23,695 nucleotides of DNA. Source: Chrysochromulina tobinii. Its lineage: Eukaryota > Haptophyta > Prymnesiales > Chrysochromulinaceae. The stretch's first letter is position 1; each line of letters opens with the position of its first letter. The stretch lies in the NCBI GenBank assembly GCA_001275005.1, contig JWZX01003042.1, positions 1-23,695 of the forward strand. Reading direction: 5' to 3'. The notes under the pieces were generated by a model that had not been told where the DNA came from, did no database searches, and worked only from the letters and a program-made list of their open reading frames with translations. Position numbers and translations under genes: made by a program. Positions 240 through 18,407 of this stretch are shown in pieces.

Positions 240-919
240 ATGTGCTGTCTCGCGATCTTTGGAGATGTGCATCGAAATAGACCTTAGTCAATAAGTAGGC
301 CGACATTCGACCCCCCCCCCGTCCTCCACCGAACGAACGGACGGCAAAGTCCAGTTCAGTCAAGTCAAGTCAAGTACACATCCATGCACATCCGGAGGAG
401 GTGAAGCTGAACCGCACAAACAGTGAGGCCCCGGGCGGCGCCCCACAGCACCAGGGCCGTGTGTGAACTCTCCGTCGGCGTCCGGCTCGGTCCGCGGTCC
501 GTTCTCCACGTCTCCTCTCACGCTCTCAGGCCGTTGAGGTTAACGTGGCGTGTGTGCAAAACTGCAAATAACGCGCTGCAAATACACGTCGGTCTCGAGC
601 GTCGCATGTTCACACGGAACACCCGGCGCGGTGGGGGAATGGACGTGAATACACAATTGCAGACTTCGTACCATGCAGACTTCACAAGACTTGTAATCCA
701 ATGTATTATTTGCTTTCAAGGGCAACATCTCAAAATGCTGCTACAGGGCTCCTAAGGGTGTAGACTGCTGCGTTAACTGCTACGTGAACGCGGCTGACAT
801 GGCATCTGAAACGTCGAATAGGGTAGTCGCGCGCGCGTGCGACCTGGGCGACGTCCGCACCAGCGGCAGCGCGCACGCTAGAGAGCGGCTCACAGCGAGA
901 CCGAGTCGCCACATGAGCC
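240..919. other. Intergenic stretch downstream of TMEM107
   Basis: About 680 bp between the foldback element and the TMEM107 stop codon. It contains a run of ten C (311-320) and a short TCAAG pentamer repeat (358-376). A 110-codon open frame on the plus strand (423-755) has no recognisable domain and looks like chance. I see no RNA gene here. Confidence 0.5.
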
Positions 920-1470
920 TCACCACCTCCTCTTACCCAGCACCATCACGGTGGTGAACGTGTAGACCTCCGCGAGCAGCTGCAACCCGTTGCCGATGCC
1001 CACGATGAACCACACGTACAAGTAGTGGCCTTTTGCGATGACCACAATCGACAGCAGAATGCTTTCCAAGGTGTGCATGAAGATATCTGCGCCAGGGACA
1101 CGATACGGGACGGGACTGTGAGCCTCGAGCGCGATCGCGCAACGGGTGGCGGCTCGGGGAAGGGGCGCCGCGACGCTGCGGCTGATGCCTGGGGAGGCAC
1201 TTTTGCGAACTCACGGAAGATGCTGATCGGGAGGTCAAACGTTGAGAAGCCGCCAAAGAAGCTCACAGCATTGATGGCCAGCACGCAAAAGCAGAGGACG
1301 AGGGCGGCGCTAGCGGAGCCGACCAGACTGTCGAGATCTGATTGCTCGTACAAGAAAGGCAGAGCGACAATGCAGTTGTCCTTGATGGCGTAGAGCGTGA
1401 GCAGCGCCGAGAAGAAGTGGCCGACGAGTGCAAGGAATCGGATGGGCACGACGAAGTCGTGGTGCCCCAT
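920..1470 (-). CDS. TMEM107: TMEM107, ciliary transition-zone membrane protein (two exons)
   Basis: Exon 1 runs 1470 to 1215 and exon 2 runs 1086 to 920; spliced, they give 140 residues, the same length as human TMEM107. The N-terminus carries the family pattern VPIRFLALVGH, then a second helix ending FFGGFSTFD, equivalent to the family's FLSGVSMFN. Exon 2 supplies two more helices (HTLESILLSIVVIAKGHYLY and the segment ending TTVMVLGKRRW). Four membrane helices with a basic tail are expected. In animals TMEM107 sits in the ciliary transition zone, helps recruit MKS-complex proteins and gates membrane-protein entry; the same role in flagella is inferred here. The ATG at 1470 is chosen because homology begins there. 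The open frame continues upstream without a good match. It is head-to-head with the demethylase gene. Confidence 0.88.
1087..1214 (-). other. TMEM107 intron (128 bp, GT-AG)
   Basis: The donor reads GTGAGT directly after ...ATCTTCC and the acceptor is GGCGCAG. The intron is phase 1; splicing joins C to AT and gives an uninterrupted ISIFHIFMHTLES through the third helix. It contains no copy of flanking exon sequence, unlike the four introns of the two large plus-strand genes. Confidence 0.85.
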
Positions 1471-1764
1471 GCGACTAGTTGCGCTGGTGTCGCCTGAGGG
1501 CAGGAATGGCTTGGCGGGAGAGCCGTGCGCCAGCCCGTGTGTCCCTCTCGCGCTTCGGGGAGTGAGTTCGTGTGAACACCGGATCTTCACATGAATGTTG
1601 AGTGACCATCGATCTCGTCGCACACGTGCGTGCCGCTCCTCCGGAGCACCTTTTCTGGAACTTGATTTTCGGTTGTGGCGGTCAGTCAAGTCTGCCTTGA
1701 CTTGACCTGACCTTGCCTTGTGTCGGCGATCTCACAGACGCGGGCCTGCTTCGCTTTTCGCGTC
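1471..1764. promoter_or_regulatory. Head-to-head promoter region, TMEM107 / LSD1-like gene
   Basis: The 294 bp between two divergent ATGs must hold both start regions. It contains an imperfect inverted repeat around 1683-1706 (AGTCAAG ... CTTGACT), close to the demethylase start. No TATA box is obvious. Shared control is inferred from layout only. Confidence 0.45.
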
Positions 1765-4700
1765 ATGTCCACCTCCAAGCGAGCAGCCAACGAAGAGGGC
1801 GACGATTCCTCTGCCGGGGGTCGTAGCATGCGCCAGCGCGAGAAGCGCACGTACAACGACGACAACCCTCTCATCTTGGCCGCACTGGCCCACATGGAAG
1901 ATGAGCGCAAGTCGAGGCCGCAGCGCACGGACGACGTTGCCGCCCGAGAGCTCGGCCTGCAGCCGTACGAGCTCGCAGACTTTGAGCGCACCTGCTGCGC
2001 GATCCCCGACGCGCTACGGCGTAAGCCCTCGCGGATGACATCGATCCGTAACCACATGCTCGGCCGCGCTGCAAAGAATCCATCCAAGTTCCTGACATTT
2101 GCCGAGTCGGTGAAGGGGCTCGACTCGTCCTTCCAGCGGTCCGTCGCGACGAGCGCCGACGCGGCCGATGCGTCCGCCGTGTACGAGTGCCTGACGCACC
2201 ACGGCTACCTCAACTTTGGCGTCCTCGACGACCACCCTTGTCTACCTGCAGCGGGCCGCAGCACCGTGTCGTCGTCAAAGGCGGCGGCGGCGGCGACGGC
2301 GAACCCCGCGCGTCGGCGCGTCATCGTCATCGGCGCGGGTGCCGCGGGGCTCGCGGCGGCTCGCCAGCTCCACATGCTCGGCCACGAAGTCATCGTGCTC
2401 GAGGCGCGTCAGCGCACGGGCGGGCGTGTGCACACCTTGAATGTGAAGACGCCCATGGGTATGGGCTCGGTGGACCTCGGCGCGATGGTCGTGACGGGCA
2501 CCGAGGGCAACCCGGTCGCCATGATCGCGCGCCAGACGCGCTCGCGCATGCATCGCCTGACCCCGAAGTGCCGCATCTACACGCCGACGGGGCAGCCGGT
2601 GCCCGATGCGCTCGACACGGCGCTCGAGGCCGAATGGAACACGATGCTCGACATGTGCAAGGCCGAGGCGCTGCCCGAGCCGTTCGCCGACGTGTCGCTC
2701 GGGAGCCGGCTGCGGGCCATCCTGCGCGAGCGCAAGGAGTGGTACAGCACCATCGAGGGGCAGCTCGCCCAAGACGAGGCCGCGCGACGGGCTCACCACG
2801 ACGCGAGTGGCCCACGGAGCGCCGTCCTGGGCGGTAGCTCGCTCGTGATCTCCGAGGGCGAGGTCGCGATCTCCGCCTATGCGTGCGAGCTGTGCGGCCG
2901 CTGCTTCGCGTCCATCGATCGGCTCGACAGGCACCGACTGTGCTGCCTGCCAGAAGGGGACGCCACACGGGTGCTCGTGCGCTCCCATAAGGCCTTCTCG
3001 GGCTTCGAGGGCGTCGTGGTGTCGCAGACGGGCAAGGGCGATAAGTGGGAGGCCTTCATCATCGATTCGAACTACGGGTCGAGCTACGGGCGCAAGCGCC
3101 GGCGCGTCGGCCAGATCTTTGATTCCGCGACCGTGATTGCATGCTGATGGCATGCTGATGGCATGCTGATTGCATGCTGATTGCATGCTGATTGCCCCCC
3201 TCATCAGGCGCGTCGGCCAGATCTTTGATTCCGCAGAGGAGGCTGCGCGCGCGTACTCCGCCGAATGCCGCACCGTGCTGCTCGAGGAGCTCGCCCGCAA
3301 ACGCGAGGAGGAGGAGGCCGACGCAGAGGGCAAGGAGAATGCCGGCGGGCGCGCGGGCGCTGCGAGTAGCGGTGCGGGCCGCGGCGTCGGGCTGGGCGGC
3401 GGCGGCGCGGCGGCCACTGCGGCCGCCGGCCCACGCATCACCAAGCTCGAGGACCACACACGCCTCGATGATGACGATGATGATGAGAGCATGAGCGGGC
3501 AGCACGCGCCGGGGCCCATCGGGGATAGCAACGAGTACGAGGTCGAGGCGATCCTAGGCGAGCGGCGTGCGCGCACGAGCGGCGGCGGCAGCCGTCTCGA
3601 GTATCAGGTCAAGTGGCGCGGCTACCTCGAGCCGACCTGGGAACCGCACGCGCATGTGAGGGACTGCCTGCCCTTTGTCGCCTATCAAGAGCAGAAGGCG
3701 CTCATCGGGTGCGATGCCTGCCGCGGCAAGCACGTCGCGCACACGTGCGGGCGCGGCGCACAGGGCGCAGGCAAGCGGCCAGCGGGGGCCGCTCGCGACG
3801 GCGCTCGCGAGGCGCCGCCACCCAAGAAGGCGGCGTCGTCGGCAAAGCAGCCAACGCTCGGCACAGCGCTCGGCCCGTCCGCCTCCGGTGCGCTCGGCAC
3901 AGCGCGCACCTTCCTCTTCAAGTGTGCGCAGTGCAGCACCCAACTGTCCCTGAGCCTGCCGCTCTCGCACACGGCACCCAAGGTGACCACCTCCTGCTCG
4001 CACTGTGGCTCCACGCTCGACATCGCCATCCCCGCCGCCAAGCCCGCGCCGCTTGCCTCGCAGCAGGCCGCGGCACCACCGCCAGCGCCGTCCCGGGCGC
4101 CACCGCCAGCGCCGTCCCGGGCGCCACCGCCAGCGCCGTCCCGGGCACCGCCGCCAGCGCCGTCCCGGGCGCCGCCGCCAGCGCCGGTCGCGCAACCCAA
4201 GACGGCGGCCGACGCACTTGAGGCACAGGAGGCGGCGACGGCGCAGGCAGCCCCGCGGTACTGCCCCAACGGCCATCGGCTCCAAGTGAGCGCATCGCAG
4301 GACAAGGCGCTCAAGTGCGACGGGACGTGCTGCCGCCTCATTGTGGCTGCGGGCTCGCGCCACTTCAGCTGCGCGCCGTGTGATTTCGACGTCTGCTTCC
4401 GCTGCGCGGTGCAGTGCTGCTCGGCCACCCCTCCGCCGCCGAGCGCATCGCCGCACGCAGCGGTCGTGCCGCCGCCCTCGAGTCTGCCACCGCTTGCCGA
4501 GCCGCCAGCGAGCGCCGTAGCGAGCGGGCTGCCGCTGCCGCCCGATACGGCGCCGCTCGTTACGGCGCCGCTCGATACGGCGCCGCCGCCCTCGTGCCCG
4601 CCATCGCCTGCGGCCGACGAGGTCGACGTCGACGTCGACATGGCAAGTGCCGCAGCCTCGCACGGCATAGCCTCGCATGGCGTAGTGAGCACTGGGGGTG

Positions 4701-7233
4701 GAGGTGCCCCCGCGTTGACACGAGACGTACTGGAAGCTGCCGCAATTGCCGAGGCTCCCTCAGCCACCGCCATAGCTCCCACTCCCGAGCTCGCATCTCC
4801 CGAGCTCGCATCTCCCGAGCTCGCATCTCCCGTAGCTCCCACTCCGACGGATGCCCCCACCGCCGACCCTACTACGCTCACGATTGCGCCGGCTCCGGCT
4901 GCGCCGTCGGCCTCGGCCGCCCCCGCTGCGCCCAATCCGGCCGCTGCGGCTCCCGCTACTGCCGCCGCTGCCGGCGCTGCTGCTGCCGCTACTTACGCTG
5001 CCGCCGCTTACGCCGCCGCCGCCGCTGCCGCTGCTGCCAATGGCCGCACCATTGCGCCGGCTCCGGCTGCGCCGTCGGCCTCTGCCGCCGCCGCTGCGCC
5101 CTGCTGCTCCTCCGCTACTGCCGCCGCTGCCGCCGCCGCTGCTGCCGCCGCGGCGGCGGCCTCCGCTGCTGCTGATGGCGCGGCCAATCGTCGGACGTTC
5201 ATGTGCGCATGCACCAGCTGTGGCACCAGCCTTCGCTTTAAGGTGGATTGCCCTCCGCAGGGATGCGTCGTGCAGACGGCCTGCGCCTCGTGCCATGCGA
5301 AGCTGCGTGTCAACATCCCGCCAAACGGCGGCGCGCCTGCGCTGCCGAAGGCGGCGCCCGCGATCGTGTCGAGTGCTCATCGCGCCGGAGCAACCGCGAC
5401 TTCGGCGGGCGCCGCCGCGGGCCGCCCCCGCCGCTGCGAATGGCCGCAGCATCAGCGCCGCCGCAGACAGCGCAGGTCGCTCAATGAGTCGACCGGCGGT
5501 GCCACAGCTTCCAGCGCTCGGCCGCGGCGAGATGCAGCGCATCGGCGGTGACGCGAGCGGCAAGGAAGCACGTGGGCTGGCTGCCGCGGATAAGGCGGCG
5601 CGCGAGGCAGCGTTTGCAGAGGAGGATGCCGAGGACACGGAGGCGCCGCTGCCGCTGCCCGCGCAGCTGCTGAACTGGCACTGGGCGAACCTCGAGTATG
5701 CCAACGGCACAGTGCTCGCCTCGCTCTCCAACCGCTGGTGGGACGCCGATGACGAGTTCGACTTTGGCGGCGGCCACTACCTGCTGCCCGATGGGTACGG
5801 TGGGCTGCTCCAAAAGGTGGCCAATGGCCTTGACGTGCGCTTTGGGCACGTCGTGCATGCAATCGAGAGGACGCCCAACGGCGTTCAGGTCAAGTACAGC
5901 AGGACGAGTGCTGCGCCCAAGACGGCGCCCGAACCCGCACCCGCGCCCGCGCCAGCGCCAGCGCCATCGCCAGCCGCGCCGCCAGCCGCTGCCGACACTA
6001 CCCTGGCTACCAGCGACATCAGTGCTGCACCTGTCGCCACTGCACCCGTCGCCGACGCGAGCTCATCCGCATCGGTCGTCGCATCGGCTGCCGCCCCTGC
6101 CGCCCCTGCCGCCCCACCTACCGCCCCTGCGGCCCCACCCACCGCCCCTGCCGCCCCACCTACCGCGGCCCCACCCGCCTCCGCCCCACCCGCCCCACCC
6201 GCCTCGGCGGCATGGAGCAGTATGGATGCGGATGCGGTGGTGGTGACGCTGCCTCTGGGCGTGCTCAAGGCGGGCATGGTGCGCTTCGACCCGCCGTTGC
6301 CACCGCGTAAGCAGAGTGCCATCGATCGGCTCGGCTTCGGCGCGCTCAACAAGGTATTGCTGCTCTTCCCACAGGACGAGTTCCGTCACGATGGCCTTGC
6401 ATGCAGGTGCTCACCACGGCGCCCCACCCTCTTCCCCACAGGTGTTGCTGCTCTTCCCACATGCTTTCTGGGAGGACCTCGAGGGGCGACGCGATTTCTG
6501 GGGCGTGTGCGCGCCCACGTCCAAACGGCGCGGCGAGGGCTTCCAATTTTGGAACCTGCAGCGGTGCACGGGCCAGCCGATGCTGCTTGTGCTGCATGCG
6601 GGGCGCGCCGCGTGCCGCGATGGCGCTCCCACGCGCGACGAGGACGCGGTCGAGGCGACGCTCGAATACCTGCGCGGCATCTTCGGTGCCGATGCGGTGC
6701 CGGCGCCCACGCAGCAGGTGGTCACTCGCTGGGACGAGGACCCCTACGCGCGCGGCGTCTACTCGCACGTCGCCCTTGGCGCGACCAGCCGCGACTACGA
6801 CTTGATGGCCGAACCGCTTTGGGACGACACGCTTCTTTGGGCAGGCGAAGCCGCGTGCCGCGCCCATCCGGCCACCGTCGCGGGCGCCTTCATTAGTGGG
6901 CTTCGTGAGGCCGCGCGCTTCGCGTGCCGCATGCATCAGGAGGGGCGCTGGCGGCCGCCAGCGCCGAGCGCCCCACTGCCGCCTGCCCTTCACCCTCACC
7001 CGAAGCCAGCGACGAGCGCCCCACTGCCGCCTGCCTTCCACTCGTGCCGGACGCCCGATCAGAGCGAGTTACTCGCGGCGCTGCAGAAGGCCCAGAACGA
7101 CGCGAGCGAAGCGCGCGCCGAGGCGCAGCAGGCTGAGGCACGCGTCGCTGAGCTGCTGCGCGAGGCGCGCCAAGCCGAGAGCGACGCCCGCCGACAGGCG
7201 GAAATGGAGCGGGCACAGCAACGATCGGGGTGA
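1765..7233 (+). CDS. LSD1-type histone lysine demethylase (SWIRM + amine oxidase) with chromatin-reader insertion
   Basis: Flavin amine oxidase of the LSD1/KDM1 family, expected to remove methyl groups from histone lysine in the nucleus. The ATG at 1765 precedes a basic, acidic-rich tail, a SWIRM domain (about residues 55-150) and the FAD fold (VIVIGAGAAGLAAARQL, about 184-215, then EARQRTGGRVHT). The oxidase is interrupted near residue 360 and resumes near 1236 with LLNWHWANLEYANG. It continues through TLPLGVLK, which keeps the lysine equivalent to human K661, then GFGALNKVLLLF, DYDLMAEP, and the FAD-binding end AGEAACRAHPATVAGAFISGLREAAR. A glutamine/alanine-rich coiled coil closes the protein. 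Assumed introns are 3102-3207, one near 5368-5470 and 6354-6441, giving about 1,726 residues, twice human LSD1. A proline/alanine-rich loop (about 5925-6210) is a second, smaller insertion. A polyamine oxidase is excluded by the SWIRM domain. Confidence 0.85.
3102..3207 (+). other. Intron 1 of LSD1-like gene (106 bp, GC-AG) bounded by duplicated exon sequence
   Basis: A 28-bp sequence is present identically at 3101-3128 and 3207-3234 (period 106). Between the copies lie tandem runs of tgattgcatgc-like 11-mers. Removing 3102-3207 uses a GC donor (GCGCGT) and acceptor CATCAG, and restores an exact AP2-like reading RRRVGQIFDSAEEAARAY. A canonical alternative, 3133-3220 (GTGATT...GGCCAG), also keeps frame but leaves a repeated IFDSAT insertion in the domain. 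Reading straight through meets a stop at about 3145. Confidence 0.7.
5368..5470 (+). other. Probable intron 2 of LSD1-like gene (exact ends unresolved)
   Basis: The reading frame of the second zinc ribbon (open to 5551) must shift by one to reach the frame of the resumed amine oxidase (LLNWHWANLEYANG from about 5671). Several GT-AG pairs keep the frame: donors at 5368 or 5373 with acceptors ending at 5449, 5455, 5466, 5470 or 5475, giving introns of 82-103 bp. The surrounding sequence is alanine/proline low complexity, so homology cannot choose between them. A one-base indel is the alternative. Confidence 0.5.
6354..6441 (+). other. Intron 3 of LSD1-like gene (88 bp, GT-AG) starting with a copy of the next exon
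   Basis: The exon ends ...CTCAACAAG and the donor begins gtattgctgctcttcccaca. The acceptor is CCCCACAG and the next exon begins gtgttgctgctcttcccaca, identical in 19 of 20 bases. Splicing is phase 0 and gives GALNKVLLLFPHAFWED, matching the LSD1 family (GNLNKVVLCFDRVFW). Reading through leads to a premature stop. A second possible acceptor (TTGCATGCAG) ends at 6406. Confidence 0.82.
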
Positions 7234-7665
7234 ACTGAGGACAGTGAGAAGACATCAGCGAGGCGTCGCCACGTCTCGGCTCGGGAGGCGGTGCATGGGC
7301 CATGGCTCGCTAGGCCCGCAAGGCCTCCCAACGCCCTCTTGCCCCCGCCCCGGGGACGGAATGGACAACCTGAGTCGCGTCGGCCTCGGTGCAAACGGTG
7401 TCGAACGTAAGGCTAAGACGTAAGAAGGACCACGAAACCGATGGGTCGGGTAACACTGACGAACATTACGTACACCTCCACATCGTTCGCCCGGATCGAC
7501 ATCGTAACCGTTACTCGAAACTCTCCGAGCGGCGAGCACACATGAGGTTCACATGCTCCAACATGAGGCTCACATGCTCCAACATGAGGTTCACATGCTC
7601 CAACATGAGGTTCACATGCTCCAACATGAGGGCCGCAAGGCGAACGAACTGGAGTAATCCATGCC
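7234..7665. other. Intergenic region between convergent 3' ends
   Basis: This 432-bp stretch separates the stop codons of two converging genes. Apart from the 21-bp tandem repeat at 7540-7631 I see no gene. A short open frame across the repeat is only the translated repeat. Confidence 0.6.
7540..7631. repeat. 21-bp tandem repeat, 4.4 copies
   Basis: The unit acatgaggttcacatgctcc plus a final a occurs at 7540, 7561, 7582 and 7603, then a partial copy. The only difference between full copies is ggct for ggtt in the second. It lies 35 bp from the stop of the EF-hand gene, in its 3' flank. No coding role is apparent. Confidence 0.9.
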
Positions 7666-8581
7666 TCAATCCGACTTTTTGACGCCCTCGGGCTTCGGTT
7701 TGGCGCCCGCAGACTTGGGCAGTAGGTGGACAGTACGCCCGAGCTCCTGGATGTTCTTCCCGAGACCATCAATGACGTCGACGACGCCTTTGCCGAGATC
7801 ATCCACAAAAGCCATTGGGTTCGATTCGGCTTTTAATGACGGTCTGGCCGCGTCTGCCGGCTGGTCTCTAGTGGACGTGGTCTGCTTATGAATCTTCTTC
7901 TGAGTCACCTTCACGACGTGATCGTCGCAAAGGGAGAGGGCCGGACCGATGACTAGCAAGAGCAGCGTCGTGAGCAGCGTCTCATCGAGAGCTGCTGGCA
8001 GAGTGGCGCCTAAGGCTTTCAAGAGGCTCGGCGTAGACAGGTGGCCAAACTCCATCAGCGTTACCACACAGAATCGCATTCCGAACGTGACGTAGCTGGC
8101 CATCATCGGGCAAATGATTGTGAGGGCGATCTGCAGGATCACCCGGCCGAATGTTTAGCGCACCAAAGGCTCAATCACCTCTTTGAATTTTTCGTAGCTC
8201 GAGGCCACGGCCATCTGCATCCGCCAGGTCCATGAGCTTCTCAACCTTGTCTCGAGGCGGCGTGCGGATGTTGAGCCCATAGCGATGAAGCTGCAGATAG
8301 AGCTCGAGTACGCCCACGTATAGCTCATCTTTATCTATGCTCCCAGAGTGATCGATGTCCACCTCGGCAAATGCTGCTTTACAGGCCGCATCAAAATAAG
8401 AGCGCCAACGCTGTCGAATGTACAAGGTACAGACGCTGGCAATCAGAAAGGTAACGACGGTGATCGACACGGCCGGCGCGAATGCGGGATGATTGGAAAG
8501 CCAGTCTTCAACACCGTCAAAAACGGATAACACCGGTGACAACGACGATGACGGCAGCGGCGGGGCGGATGACCACGCCAT
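7666..8581 (-). pseudogene. Membrane EF-hand protein gene, broken or with an unrecognised intron
   Basis: From the ATG at 8581 the frame encodes one membrane helix (about residues 36-56), then a canonical EF-hand (DIDHSGSIDKDE at residue 75) and the start of a second (LADADGRG). There the frame slips: the matching second half, SSYEKFKEVIEPLVR, is in another frame, then meets TAA at 8157-8155. That same frame reopens as TFGRVILQIALTIICPMMASYVTFGMRF with two further hydrophobic stretches, ending at 7666. So the ancestral protein was probably helix - two EF-hands - helices. One spliced reading is possible: donor AAG/GTTGAG with acceptor CCTGCAG, phase 0, removing the second EF-hand, the slip and the stop together. 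An assembly error would explain the slip but not both lesions easily. It is head-to-head with another EF-hand membrane gene. Confidence 0.6.
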
Positions 8582-15460: not shown

Positions 15461-15598
15461 GGCCGCTTTGTGGTACACAACAGCCGGCGGTTTCCCCACA
15501 GCGAACTTTTTCAGCTTCGAGTTCTTTGAGGTGAGGCCAAAAAAAAGCCTCTCGCGGGTTGAGGTAGGCTGCCGTCCCCTGTAGCGCCGCGGCTCACC
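15461..15598. promoter_or_regulatory. 138-bp bidirectional promoter, CCDC113 / anoctamin
   Basis: Only 138 bp separate the two divergent ATGs, the shortest head-to-head spacing in the window. The two genes must share 5' regulatory sequence or overlap in their leaders. No RFX X-box palindrome or TATA box could be identified by eye. Confidence 0.55.
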
Positions 15599-18407
15599 AT
15601 GAGCAGTCAGGCACAGGACGGCTATGCCCACCTCGAGGAGGGCATAGGCGAGCTTCTACTAACGGCGCCCCCCAGCACCGGGCAGCCGTATTTCGACCTC
15701 GTCCTCATCTTTCCGGTGGCTGATGCGAACAGTGGCGCGGTAGAGCAGGCGGACAGTGACGCCGTAGAGAAGGCCACAGCCGAGCTCAAGCTGAAGCGAC
15801 CGTCCTTCCAAGGGCTGCCGGGCGGCCCAAAGCGGCAACGCGACGTTGTCGCTGCACGCGTGCGCTCGATCGGCATCGAGGCTGTTGCTGATCTCTCTCG
15901 TGATCGAGATGAGGTGCTGCTCAAGCTATCCGCTCCCGACGCGCTCCTCGAGAAGATGGCTGAGCACCTGACGATGGAGAAGCGGCTCAAGGCGGACAGG
16001 CGGGGCCGCGAGGGCTACTACACGGACTTCAAGGCCGCTGAAAAGGAGCGCTTCGAGCCGGAAAGCCCGACGTGCTTCTTCAGCTCCCTCGAGCGCATCC
16101 GGCTGCTACAGTCGCTGCTCGAGCTGCCGCAACACGAGGGTGGCTGCGGCCTCAACCTGGACGACCTGCTCGCGATCAAGGTGCTCACGGCAGTCGTGCC
16201 CGTTCACGAGATCGAGGGCAGGCGGACGGAGCTCATGCGCATCTGGGTTTCGCCGCCGCTCAAGCTCACTGTCAACCAGCCGCTCGACCGAGTCCGTGAT
16301 TACTTCGGCGAGCGAATCGCCTTCTACTATGCCTTCACCGAGGAGCTCACGAACGCGGTCCTGTACCCCGCCGCGATGGGTGCGGTGCTCTTCATCGTGT
16401 CCCAAATTTGGTACAACGGCTCCACCGACAACATGTTCACGCCCATGTACTCCATGTTTATCCTCGTCTGGATCACCTATTTCCTAAAGAGGTGGAGACG
16501 CGCTGAGGCGAGGCTCGCGGCGCACTGGCACGTGGTCGACTATCGGGAGACGGAGCGGCAGAGGAAAGAGTTTGAAGGCGACGAGGCGCGCGGCTTCTAC
16601 TCGGACGAGGGCTACTGGGTCCCCGTCCCCGATGATGACGAGTACGCCGACAAGGCGCCGCTGACGAAAAGGTTCTTGCCCTCAGAGCGCCGAGAACGCG
16701 TGCTCTATTCATACGTCCTCCTGACGCCCATTCTGGTGGGCATGGTCGTGGTGATCACCATGGTCCTCGCGTACAAGTCGCTGGCCATGCTCAACTTTTA
16801 CCTGCTCTTCATCAATGACGGCAAGCCGGAGACCCTCGACCGGCACGGAGTGCAGCTGGGCTCTGTCCTGGGCGGCGCGATGAACGGCGTCTACGTCGCG
16901 GTGAGCAACCAGGTGTACCAGCGCGTGGCGCGGCGCCTCACCGACTGGGAGAATCACCGCACGCTGTCCGACTACGACGATGCGCTCATCGTCAAGACCA
17001 TGATCTTCCAGTCCGCCAACTCGTACGTGGCGCTCTACTACACCGCCTTCGTCAAGGCCGGTGACATCGATTGGCTCTCATGGCTGACACACGTCCCAGA
17101 GTACTGCCACGACAAGACGCACTTCACCTTGACCGCGGAGCAGATCGAGGCGCAGTATGGTGGCGTCAATCCGTACTGCATGAACGACCTGTCGGCCTTC
17201 ATGACCACGGCCTTGATCGTCAACATGCTGACTGGCAAGATCTTAGAATTTGTGATGCCCTGGATGAAAGGCGAAGCTCCGGGAGGCAGACGAGGAGTTT
17301 GCCATGTTCGCGGCGCAGACGGCCAAGGAGGAGACGGCGATCGAACGGATCTGCTTCAAGTTGCGCTTCCTCTGTGGCGGGCACTCGGTTGCGGTCAAGA
17401 TGGCCGAGGCCTCAGGCGAGCAGGTTGTCATCAGCGCGATGACTGTGTACGAGGCGCAGGCGAAGCTCGAGCCCTTCGAGGGAGTCTTCTCCGAGTACTC
17501 ACGGATCGTGGTGCAGCTCGGCTACGTGGTGCTCTTCGCGCCCGCCTTCCCGCTCGCCTCGGCGCTGCTCTTTGCCTCGTTCTACTTTGAACTTCGCACG
17601 GATGCGTACAAGATGGTGTGCAACACGCGCCGGCCGCCCTACATAGGTGGTGAGGACATCGGCTCGTGGCAGACAGTGCTGCGAGTGCTTGCGGCGCTGG
17701 GCGTGCTGACAAATGTTGGTCTGGTCGGGGTCACCGACACGACCCTCAAGCGCCTGCTGCCGTTCAAGCTCCTCGGGCTCATCGAGATCAACGAGAGCAA
17801 CAAGCTCATGTTCCTGATCGTCGTCGAGCACCTGCTGCTCCTCGCGCAGTTCTATGTGGTGACCATGATCCCGGACATGCCCGAGGACCTTGCCGTCGAG
17901 ACTGCCTCTCAGCAGTGGCGCGCTAAGGCGCCGCGAGAGCCGCCACCGCCGCCTCCCGCGCAGTGGGACGACGACGCGCTGCTCCGCATCTATGGAACTG
18001 CCGAGAAGGCGAACAAGGCTTTTTCCGAGGCACCAACGTCACCGACCGACGCGAAACCCGCACACGCGCAGTATTACGACATGACTGAGGCCCTCCGCGA
18101 GATCGATGCAGCTCTCAGGGAAGGCTCTGGGAAGAAGCTGGACTTGAATAACGGCGCTCTGCGCGACATGCTGCGCAACGCACAGCAACAGTGTGCGCCT
18201 CCGTCCTTGGAGAGCATATCGCCGGCGCTCGAGCGGCTTTCCACTGTGCCGGAAGACAGGATCAGCAATGGATCTCTGGTCGATGCCTCTCGCCATGGGA
18301 ATCGCCGGGCTGCCACTTGGGTCGAAAAGCTCACCCACTCACCCGCGCGCTCGGAGCGCGGTGAGACGAGTCGTGCTGGAAGCATCTCTTCTCGACTCTG
18401 GACATGA
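15599..18407 (+). CDS. Anoctamin (TMEM16) channel/scramblase family protein, one apparent frameshift
   Basis: The ATG at 15599 (caccATGag) opens 663 codons. Homology continues in the next frame from about 17266: MPWMK is followed by KLREADEEFAMFAAQTAKEETAIE. Skipping one base gives about 935 residues. The cytosolic N-terminus (about 1-235) precedes the membrane domain, which opens with RIAFYYAFTEELTNAVLYPAAMGAVLFIV. The family helix VKTMIFQSANSYVALYYTAF follows, then EYSRIVVQLGYVVLFAPAFPLASAL, FELRTDAYK (keeping the E-x3-D pair of the Ca2+ site on helix 8) and DIGSW, and a last helix near LIVVEHLLLLAQFYVVTMIP. In EYSRI the second acidic residue of the usual EYLEM is R, so Ca2+ control may differ. 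The tail (about 770-935) is cytosolic and proline/serine rich. Members are Ca2+-activated chloride channels or lipid scramblases; which applies here cannot be told. Confidence 0.85.

Follow-up and report, generated by a model that had tools for sequence, protein, structure and literature searches.

According to passages of PMC6558185, the Tower of the histone demethylase LSD1 interacts with CoREST and is needed for activity on nucleosomes, and in fungal KDM1 proteins, as part of PMC2579438 describes, an insertion at the Tower position is dissimilar to the animal one. The gene considered here lies at positions 1765 to 7233 on the + strand of a 23,695-nucleotide stretch from the haptophyte Chrysochromulina tobinii (contig JWZX01003042.1, assembly GCA_001275005.1), the whole of which is called the window below. 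Sequence comparison, together with a structure model of an orthologue, supports the assignment of its product as a protein with a SWIRM domain and two KDM1-like oxidase halves, with a cassette of further predicted domains at the Tower insertion site. Overall, it appears probable that the gene encodes a KDM1 demethylase in which a chromatin-targeting cassette replaces the CoREST-binding Tower, some steps of its action being inferred as set out below.

The best matches of the window oxidase in the PDB are LSD1 and then LSD2. Twenty-two of the 28 LSD1 positions checked, residues of the H3-tail pocket being among those checked, are identical in the window, including the catalytic lysine (K661). 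A preliminary description of the window, made by reading its letters, had named several domains, and profile searches on the spliced protein bore out the amine oxidase (Pfam E 2.7e-70 on the whole protein, in three stretches), the chromodomain (Chromo, 31.7 bits against a cut-off of 25.1) and the SWIRM domain, which passes its cut-off of 28.6 bits on exon 1 (30.0 bits) and falls just below it on the whole protein (27.4 bits).

The break at the Tower position was also borne out. The oxidase N-half matches LSD1 to about residue 420 and the C-half alignment starts at ILDWHFANLEFAN, the insertion being placed by the limits that we take the LSD1 Tower to have. The gap from SLG to WHWANLEY is 929 residues long in the window, and 641, 462, 568 and 512 in four relatives, P0001, P0002, P0003 and P0080, respectively. 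What fills it in the window is fingers, an AP2-like domain and a chromodomain, and not a CoREST-binding coiled-coil Tower. The idea of a Tower hidden within the insert was rejected, with no Tower-like match by sequence or in the model of P0080. In that model, parts of both oxidase halves build one oxidase domain, as the preliminary description had expected of its one flavin adenine dinucleotide (FAD) domain, and the cassette leaves from the Tower base, where only one helix of 32 residues and one of 17 are predicted. When window exon 1 was folded alone, the SWIRM domain was good and the oxidase half poor, with a mean predicted local distance difference test (pLDDT) score of 61.7. The structure-search matches listed were LSD1, LSD2, polyamine oxidases or SWIRM proteins, with no AP2 or chromodomain among them. 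Against viral structures, the P0080 model gave one match below E 0.001, a Fadolivirus amine oxidase (E 5.5e-12), which is not informative at its low template modelling (TM) score.

The gene and its parts are as follows.

1765..7233, + strand: KDM1/LSD1-family gene, about 1728 residues once spliced (spliced model, Pfam, orthologues)
1765..3101, + strand: exon 1, with SWIRM, oxidase N-half, C2HC finger and first part of the AP2-like domain
1966..2217, + strand: SWIRM domain (Pfam)
2311..2799, + strand: amine oxidase N-half, with GAGAAG FAD motif, MVVTG, and SLG at 2695
2872..2955, + strand: C2HC zinc finger, start of the cassette; ligands invariant in four aligned sequences, 54-68% identity to four relatives
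2977..3298, + strand: AP2-like domain (profile comparisons), split by intron 1
3102..3207, + strand: intron 1, GC-AG, 106 nt; bordered on either side by a 28-nt exonic duplication, its (GCATGCTGATT)n body recurring genome-wide
3527..3706, + strand: chromodomain (Pfam, PDB profile search, alignment); Y-W-Y cage positions kept
3704..3772, + strand: HTCG mini-finger, C-x2-C-x3-H-x2-HTC
3908..4030, + strand: zinc ribbon 1 (cysteine spacing; no Pfam family over cut-off)
4253..4405, + strand: ZZ/DC1-like finger (sequence reading), found in the window sequence only
5192..5320, + strand: zinc ribbon 2 (cysteine spacing, alignment; no Pfam family over cut-off)
5366..5456, + strand: shift from frame 2 to frame 0, through an intron or a base error
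5646..5906, + strand: amine oxidase C-half, first part, with LLNWHWANLEYANG
5907..6215, + strand: Pro/Ala-rich loop inside the C-half, about 100 residues; a gap in three aligned relatives
6216..6936, + strand: amine oxidase C-half, second part, with TLPLGVLK and the catalytic lysine in FGALNK; interrupted by intron 3
6354..6441, + strand: intron 3, GT-AG, 88 nt; exonic duplication of 17 nt, exact, and at least 705 genome matches to its 24-mer
7057..7230, + strand: coiled-coil-like C-terminal tail (sequence reading by eye)

All of the parts named in the preliminary description are present; their order had to be corrected, the ZZ/DC1-like finger coming after zinc ribbon 1 and before zinc ribbon 2. 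The HTCG mini-finger, the Pro/Ala loop and the coiled-coil-like C-terminus are additions to it. Three frame changes occur between 1765 and 7233, and two are well-marked introns (3102-3207 and 6354-6441), each flanked by two copies of one exonic sequence (28 nt in intron 1; 17 nt, exact, in intron 3), so that splicing would leave one copy and restore the reading frame. The remaining change sits in a low-complexity linker where many GT-AG junctions fit and none is preferred; the 1728-residue protein was written with one chosen junction there, and no domain depends on that choice.

A search with the spliced protein yielded P0001 (1344 residues), P0002 (Prymnesium parvum AB1Y20_002174, 1747 residues) and P0003, and one with the C-half of P0003 yielded P0080 and P0081, a partial Emiliania huxleyi model with ribbons and C-half. 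With the cassette alone as query, the protein search found no more than P0001 and P0002; it missed the true homologue P0003 and hence was not exhaustive. Together with the window protein, P0001, P0002, P0003 and P0080 make up the five long cassette proteins. In P0001 and P0002 the oxidase is interrupted by a chromodomain-bearing cassette, while P0003 and P0080 are single proteins that begin within the N-half, have the C2HC finger, AP2-like domain and two ribbons next, and continue into the C-half. P0080 has 1116 residues and nearly fills a contig of at most 3598 bases, which leaves little room for introns. The preliminary view of the window gene as one protein needing splicing is supported, independently of any assumed splice sites, by these single-protein relatives joining both halves.

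The window is 54-69% identical to the four long relatives over the C2HC and AP2-like parts and 48-60% over the oxidase N-half present, and such conservation across independent sequences speaks against chance. In a tree of 35 oxidase domains, the five cassette proteins form one clade (support 100/100), placed among the KDM1s, with the window as sister to P. parvum (92/89). The layout recurs in other likely haptophytes, as the preliminary description had thought worth seeking, in P0001, P0002, P0003 and P0080 and in part in P0081; judged from sequence, it is common to these relatives and conserved in the lineage. A view of the cassette as a mobile module was set aside, the genome offering, among the best candidates, no second place with the C2HC-AP2 part besides the window.

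Several parts vary among the relatives. The window and P0001 have the chromodomain and the HTCG finger in different orders. Three features were seen in the window only: the ZZ/DC1-like finger, which five relatives lack at full length, the Pro/Ala-rich loop of the C-half (5907-6215) and the tail that resembles a coiled coil. Therefore, the constant core consists of the C2HC finger, the AP2-like domain and the two ribbons. The short finger C-x2-C-x(3,5)-H-x2-HTC[GA] recurs across several of these chromatin proteins: its pattern occurs once in P0001, eleven times in P0002 (all after the oxidase) and once in P0079, and in Pfam the HTCG fingers gave only a zf-C2HE match below cut-off, in P0002.

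Within the core, the C2HC finger has a weak Pfam match (zf-C2H2_11, E 4e-4, under cut-off), and its pattern C-x2-C-x12-H-x3-C is invariant in all four aligned sequences. For the AP2-like domain Pfam fails as proof, and profile comparisons were used instead. A profile of the five AP2-like stretches had only two PDB matches at E up to 10, WRI1 (E 1.8e-5) and ERF096 (E 0.15), both of them AP2 transcription factors, and hhalign gave 95% probability for this profile against AP2-like repeats of the same genome. Genes with such repeats (SSNESGFKGVR...YLGTFATPEEAALCYARHVGAERA), also under the Pfam AP2 cut-off, were observed at loci L027-L029. The chromodomain profile came nearest in the PDB to cpSRP43 (E 4.6e-13), CDYL (E 8.4e-12) and HP1 (E 3.7e-11). 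Its positions Y, W and Y, which we presume to have the roles of the aromatic cage, are invariant in the alignment of all three chromodomain-bearing cassette proteins. The assembly holds at least 49 chromodomain matches at E 1e-4 (own-genome counts being lower bounds throughout), hence the domain is not rare in this organism.

A possible mode of action can be described as follows. The enzyme would demethylate a histone lysine in its mono- and dimethyl states, H3K4 by analogy. The core of C2HC finger, AP2-like domain and ribbons may bind DNA, and would thereby do in cis the job that CoREST does in trans for LSD1. Where present, the chromodomain could anchor the enzyme on a methylated H3 tail via its aromatic cage, such that, on a single nucleosome, it might erase one mark as it reads another. 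The simplest reading would be that this lineage placed targeting domains at the Tower point, and the layout suggests that the enzyme steers itself to its targets. The preliminary description had in-cis readers replacing the Tower: a single KDM1 protein with its cassette at the Tower site was retained, while methyl reading, with no chromodomain in P0003 and P0080, is not an invariant job of the cassette.

Several observations weigh against the replacement of the Tower by a chromatin-targeting cassette. The chromodomain is found in only three of the five long cassette proteins. The Pfam AP2 model reports nothing in the window, P0001, P0002 or P0003 and is under its cut-off in all five, P0080 giving E 0.067 and 13.9 bits (cut-off 33.3; residues 159-212, profile positions 1-51 of 54). 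The gene model is a prediction from genomic sequence. P0080, on which the structural argument is built, begins without SWIRM and the FAD Rossmann start, most of its insert is modelled at low confidence, and other KDM1s were in its alignment, which favours a KDM1-like model. In the oxidase tree, support for the deep forks is weak and there are several long outgroup branches. Finally, two of five ELM2 matches in the assembly are over cut-off (best C1482, E 7.1e-5), so that a CoREST-like partner is possible. With ELM2 domains present, a claim that CoREST is absent from the genome was dropped.

A bolder version of the demethylase proposal is tentative, and somewhat doubtful as a whole. It would be a self-targeting haptophyte LSD1 with the Tower swapped for an in-cis CoREST substitute, an AP2/C2HC core on nucleosomal DNA, and an HP1/CDYL-type chromodomain reading a repressive mark, so that one methyl mark would license the removal of another. 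If this were true, the Tower site might serve amine-oxidase erasers generally as a plug-in point, and C878 and P0073, two split oxidases described below, would perhaps be further users of it. A Tower replaced by the kinds of domain that bind DNA or methyl marks would be a natural domain-swap experiment on which part of the CoREST contact matters, and the Tower site appears able to carry very different arms. The gene may also give a handle on histone erasers in haptophytes, which are major ocean algae, and on whose chromatin little work was found in literature searching.

Among the alternatives, the one that survives best takes the enzyme and its layout as real, with the cassette as a partner hub or regulatory arm, possibly still for an ELM2/CoREST-like scaffold, as the Tower is; this is unlikely, yet deserves serious weight. 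Protein binding is common among zinc ribbons and C2HC fingers, the genome codes for ELM2 domains, and the cassettes of P0003 and P0080 manage without a chromodomain, all of which would suit a hub. However, AP2 is typically a DNA-binding fold, the only PDB matches of the AP2-like profile are AP2 transcription factors, and the chromodomain cage is kept wherever there is a chromodomain. Fission yeast Lsd1, which acts in complex with PHD proteins according to passages of PMC10795994, provides a precedent for the hub.

It is very improbable that the gene is a decaying or catalytically dead copy with junk for an insert. The frame change at 5366-5456, the low-complexity linkers and the C-half Pro/Ala loop that three aligned relatives lack might be read as decay, but the catalytic lysine is preserved along with 21 more of the positions checked, the C2HC and AP2-like parts share 54-69% of their residues with four relatives, and the C2HC-AP2 part was found at one genome place among the best candidates. 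Least credible of all, and extremely improbable, is that an assembly join, or a group of two or three adjacent genes, was taken for one gene, since, for all three frame changes (the middle one an intron or a base error), P0080 and P0003 run from N-half through cassette to C-half as single proteins, P0080 on a contig with hardly more room than it fills, P0002 and P0001 have the same order, neither window half is complete alone while together they give one oxidase profile, and repeat families found across the genome match introns 1 and 3; the two-gene reading was rejected on the single-protein relatives.

The two intron families merit a description of their own. Intron 3 carries the 24-mer GCATGCANGTGCTCACCACGGCGC, followed by a pyrimidine tract and CACAG, with at least 705 genome matches against none in a reversed control. 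Among 30 sampled sites from 21 loci (the window included; loci L014-L042), exact direct repeats of at least 14 nt flank 17, compared with 20 of 844 mixed pairs in an equal-length control, and at 20 nt the counts are 13 of 30 and 1 of 844. The flank repeat often begins at AG|GT. By its sequence features, the family looks like introner-driven intron gain with the donor site borrowed from the duplication; for earlier introner families, repeats of 3-9 bp are given in the part of PMC9860276 that concerns them. The intron 1 family (loci L049-L060) consists of GCATGCTGATT repeats ending in CATCAG, a 26-mer of which has at least 412 hits at up to one mismatch, overlaps counted. Flank repeats of at least 14 nt were found, without a control, in 10 of 13 arrays examined; of the 13, two come from intron 1 of the window itself and another two, in L049, share one repeat. 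Elsewhere in the window, positions 1-239 hold an element resembling a miniature inverted-repeat transposable element, with 79-nt inverted arms that are 91% complementary and an end with at least 25 genome hits at up to two mismatches, its own two included. A candidate anoctamin/TMEM16-like membrane protein was recognised by eye at 15563-18407.

To see how unusual such a split is, 142 proteins from three protein searches were considered, and the distance from the FAD motif to WH could be measured by script in 130; P0003 is among the other 12. True distances above 500 were found in P0001, P0002, P0073 and P0005. A chance motif far upstream accounts for the high values of P0019, P0024, P0037 and P0048, and the pattern produced artefactual values for P0080 and P0081. 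Close reading covered the five cassette proteins from the database, together with P0005, P0065, P0073, P0079 and P0083. The insert of P0005 is low-complexity. P0073 is a metagenome SWIRM-oxidase of 1860 residues, with a distance of 1067 against a median of 172 (about 900 extra residues); its insert is Tudor-like by eye, and Pfam reports no domain in it at E up to 0.1. In the same genome as the window, contig C878 (L009) has a 2488-residue open frame at 310-7773, without SWIRM in Pfam, whose amine oxidase halves stand about 1850 residues apart; in between lie a PTM/DIR17-type Tudor and, by eye, fingers of a C2H2-like kind, and the frame ends with a PHD-like finger that scores under the cut-off. 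By sequence, it would be a second reader-laden split oxidase. In P0073 and C878 the oxidase halves are parted as in the window, but the inserts are different and both fall outside the cassette clade in the tree. The same genome also has, on contig C1918, a KDM1-like gene without an insert of such size.

In full-text searching of the literature, judged on titles, abstracts and passages, no KDM1 with this layout was recognised, in agreement with the preliminary description, which knew of none.

Human LSD1/KDM1A in complex with CoREST (PDB codes include 2iw5 and 6vyp) shares with the window protein the SWIRM and FAD amine oxidase domains and the insertion point, as well as the catalytic lysine and most of the checked substrate-lining residues. 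At that point LSD1 has a coiled-coil Tower of about 100 residues, whereas the window has 929 residues in several domains, with candidate readers inside the enzyme. To our knowledge, LSD2/KDM1B has no chromodomain or AP2-like domain. It is described in passages of PMC6558185 as a KDM1 oxidase without a Tower and with zinc fingers; its CW finger is near the N-terminus (part of PMC2579438) and, unlike the window fingers, does not interrupt the oxidase. The plant LDL3 group resembles the window in its long protein with an insert at the Tower position, but that insert has only 24-94 residues and no reader domain is named for it in the passages of PMC6558185 that describe the group. In fission yeast, Lsd1 has no Tower and Lsd1/2 use a DNA-binding HMG box for chromatin binding, as stated in passages of PMC10795994; that box is C-terminal, whereas the window cassette sits in the insertion site of the oxidase itself.
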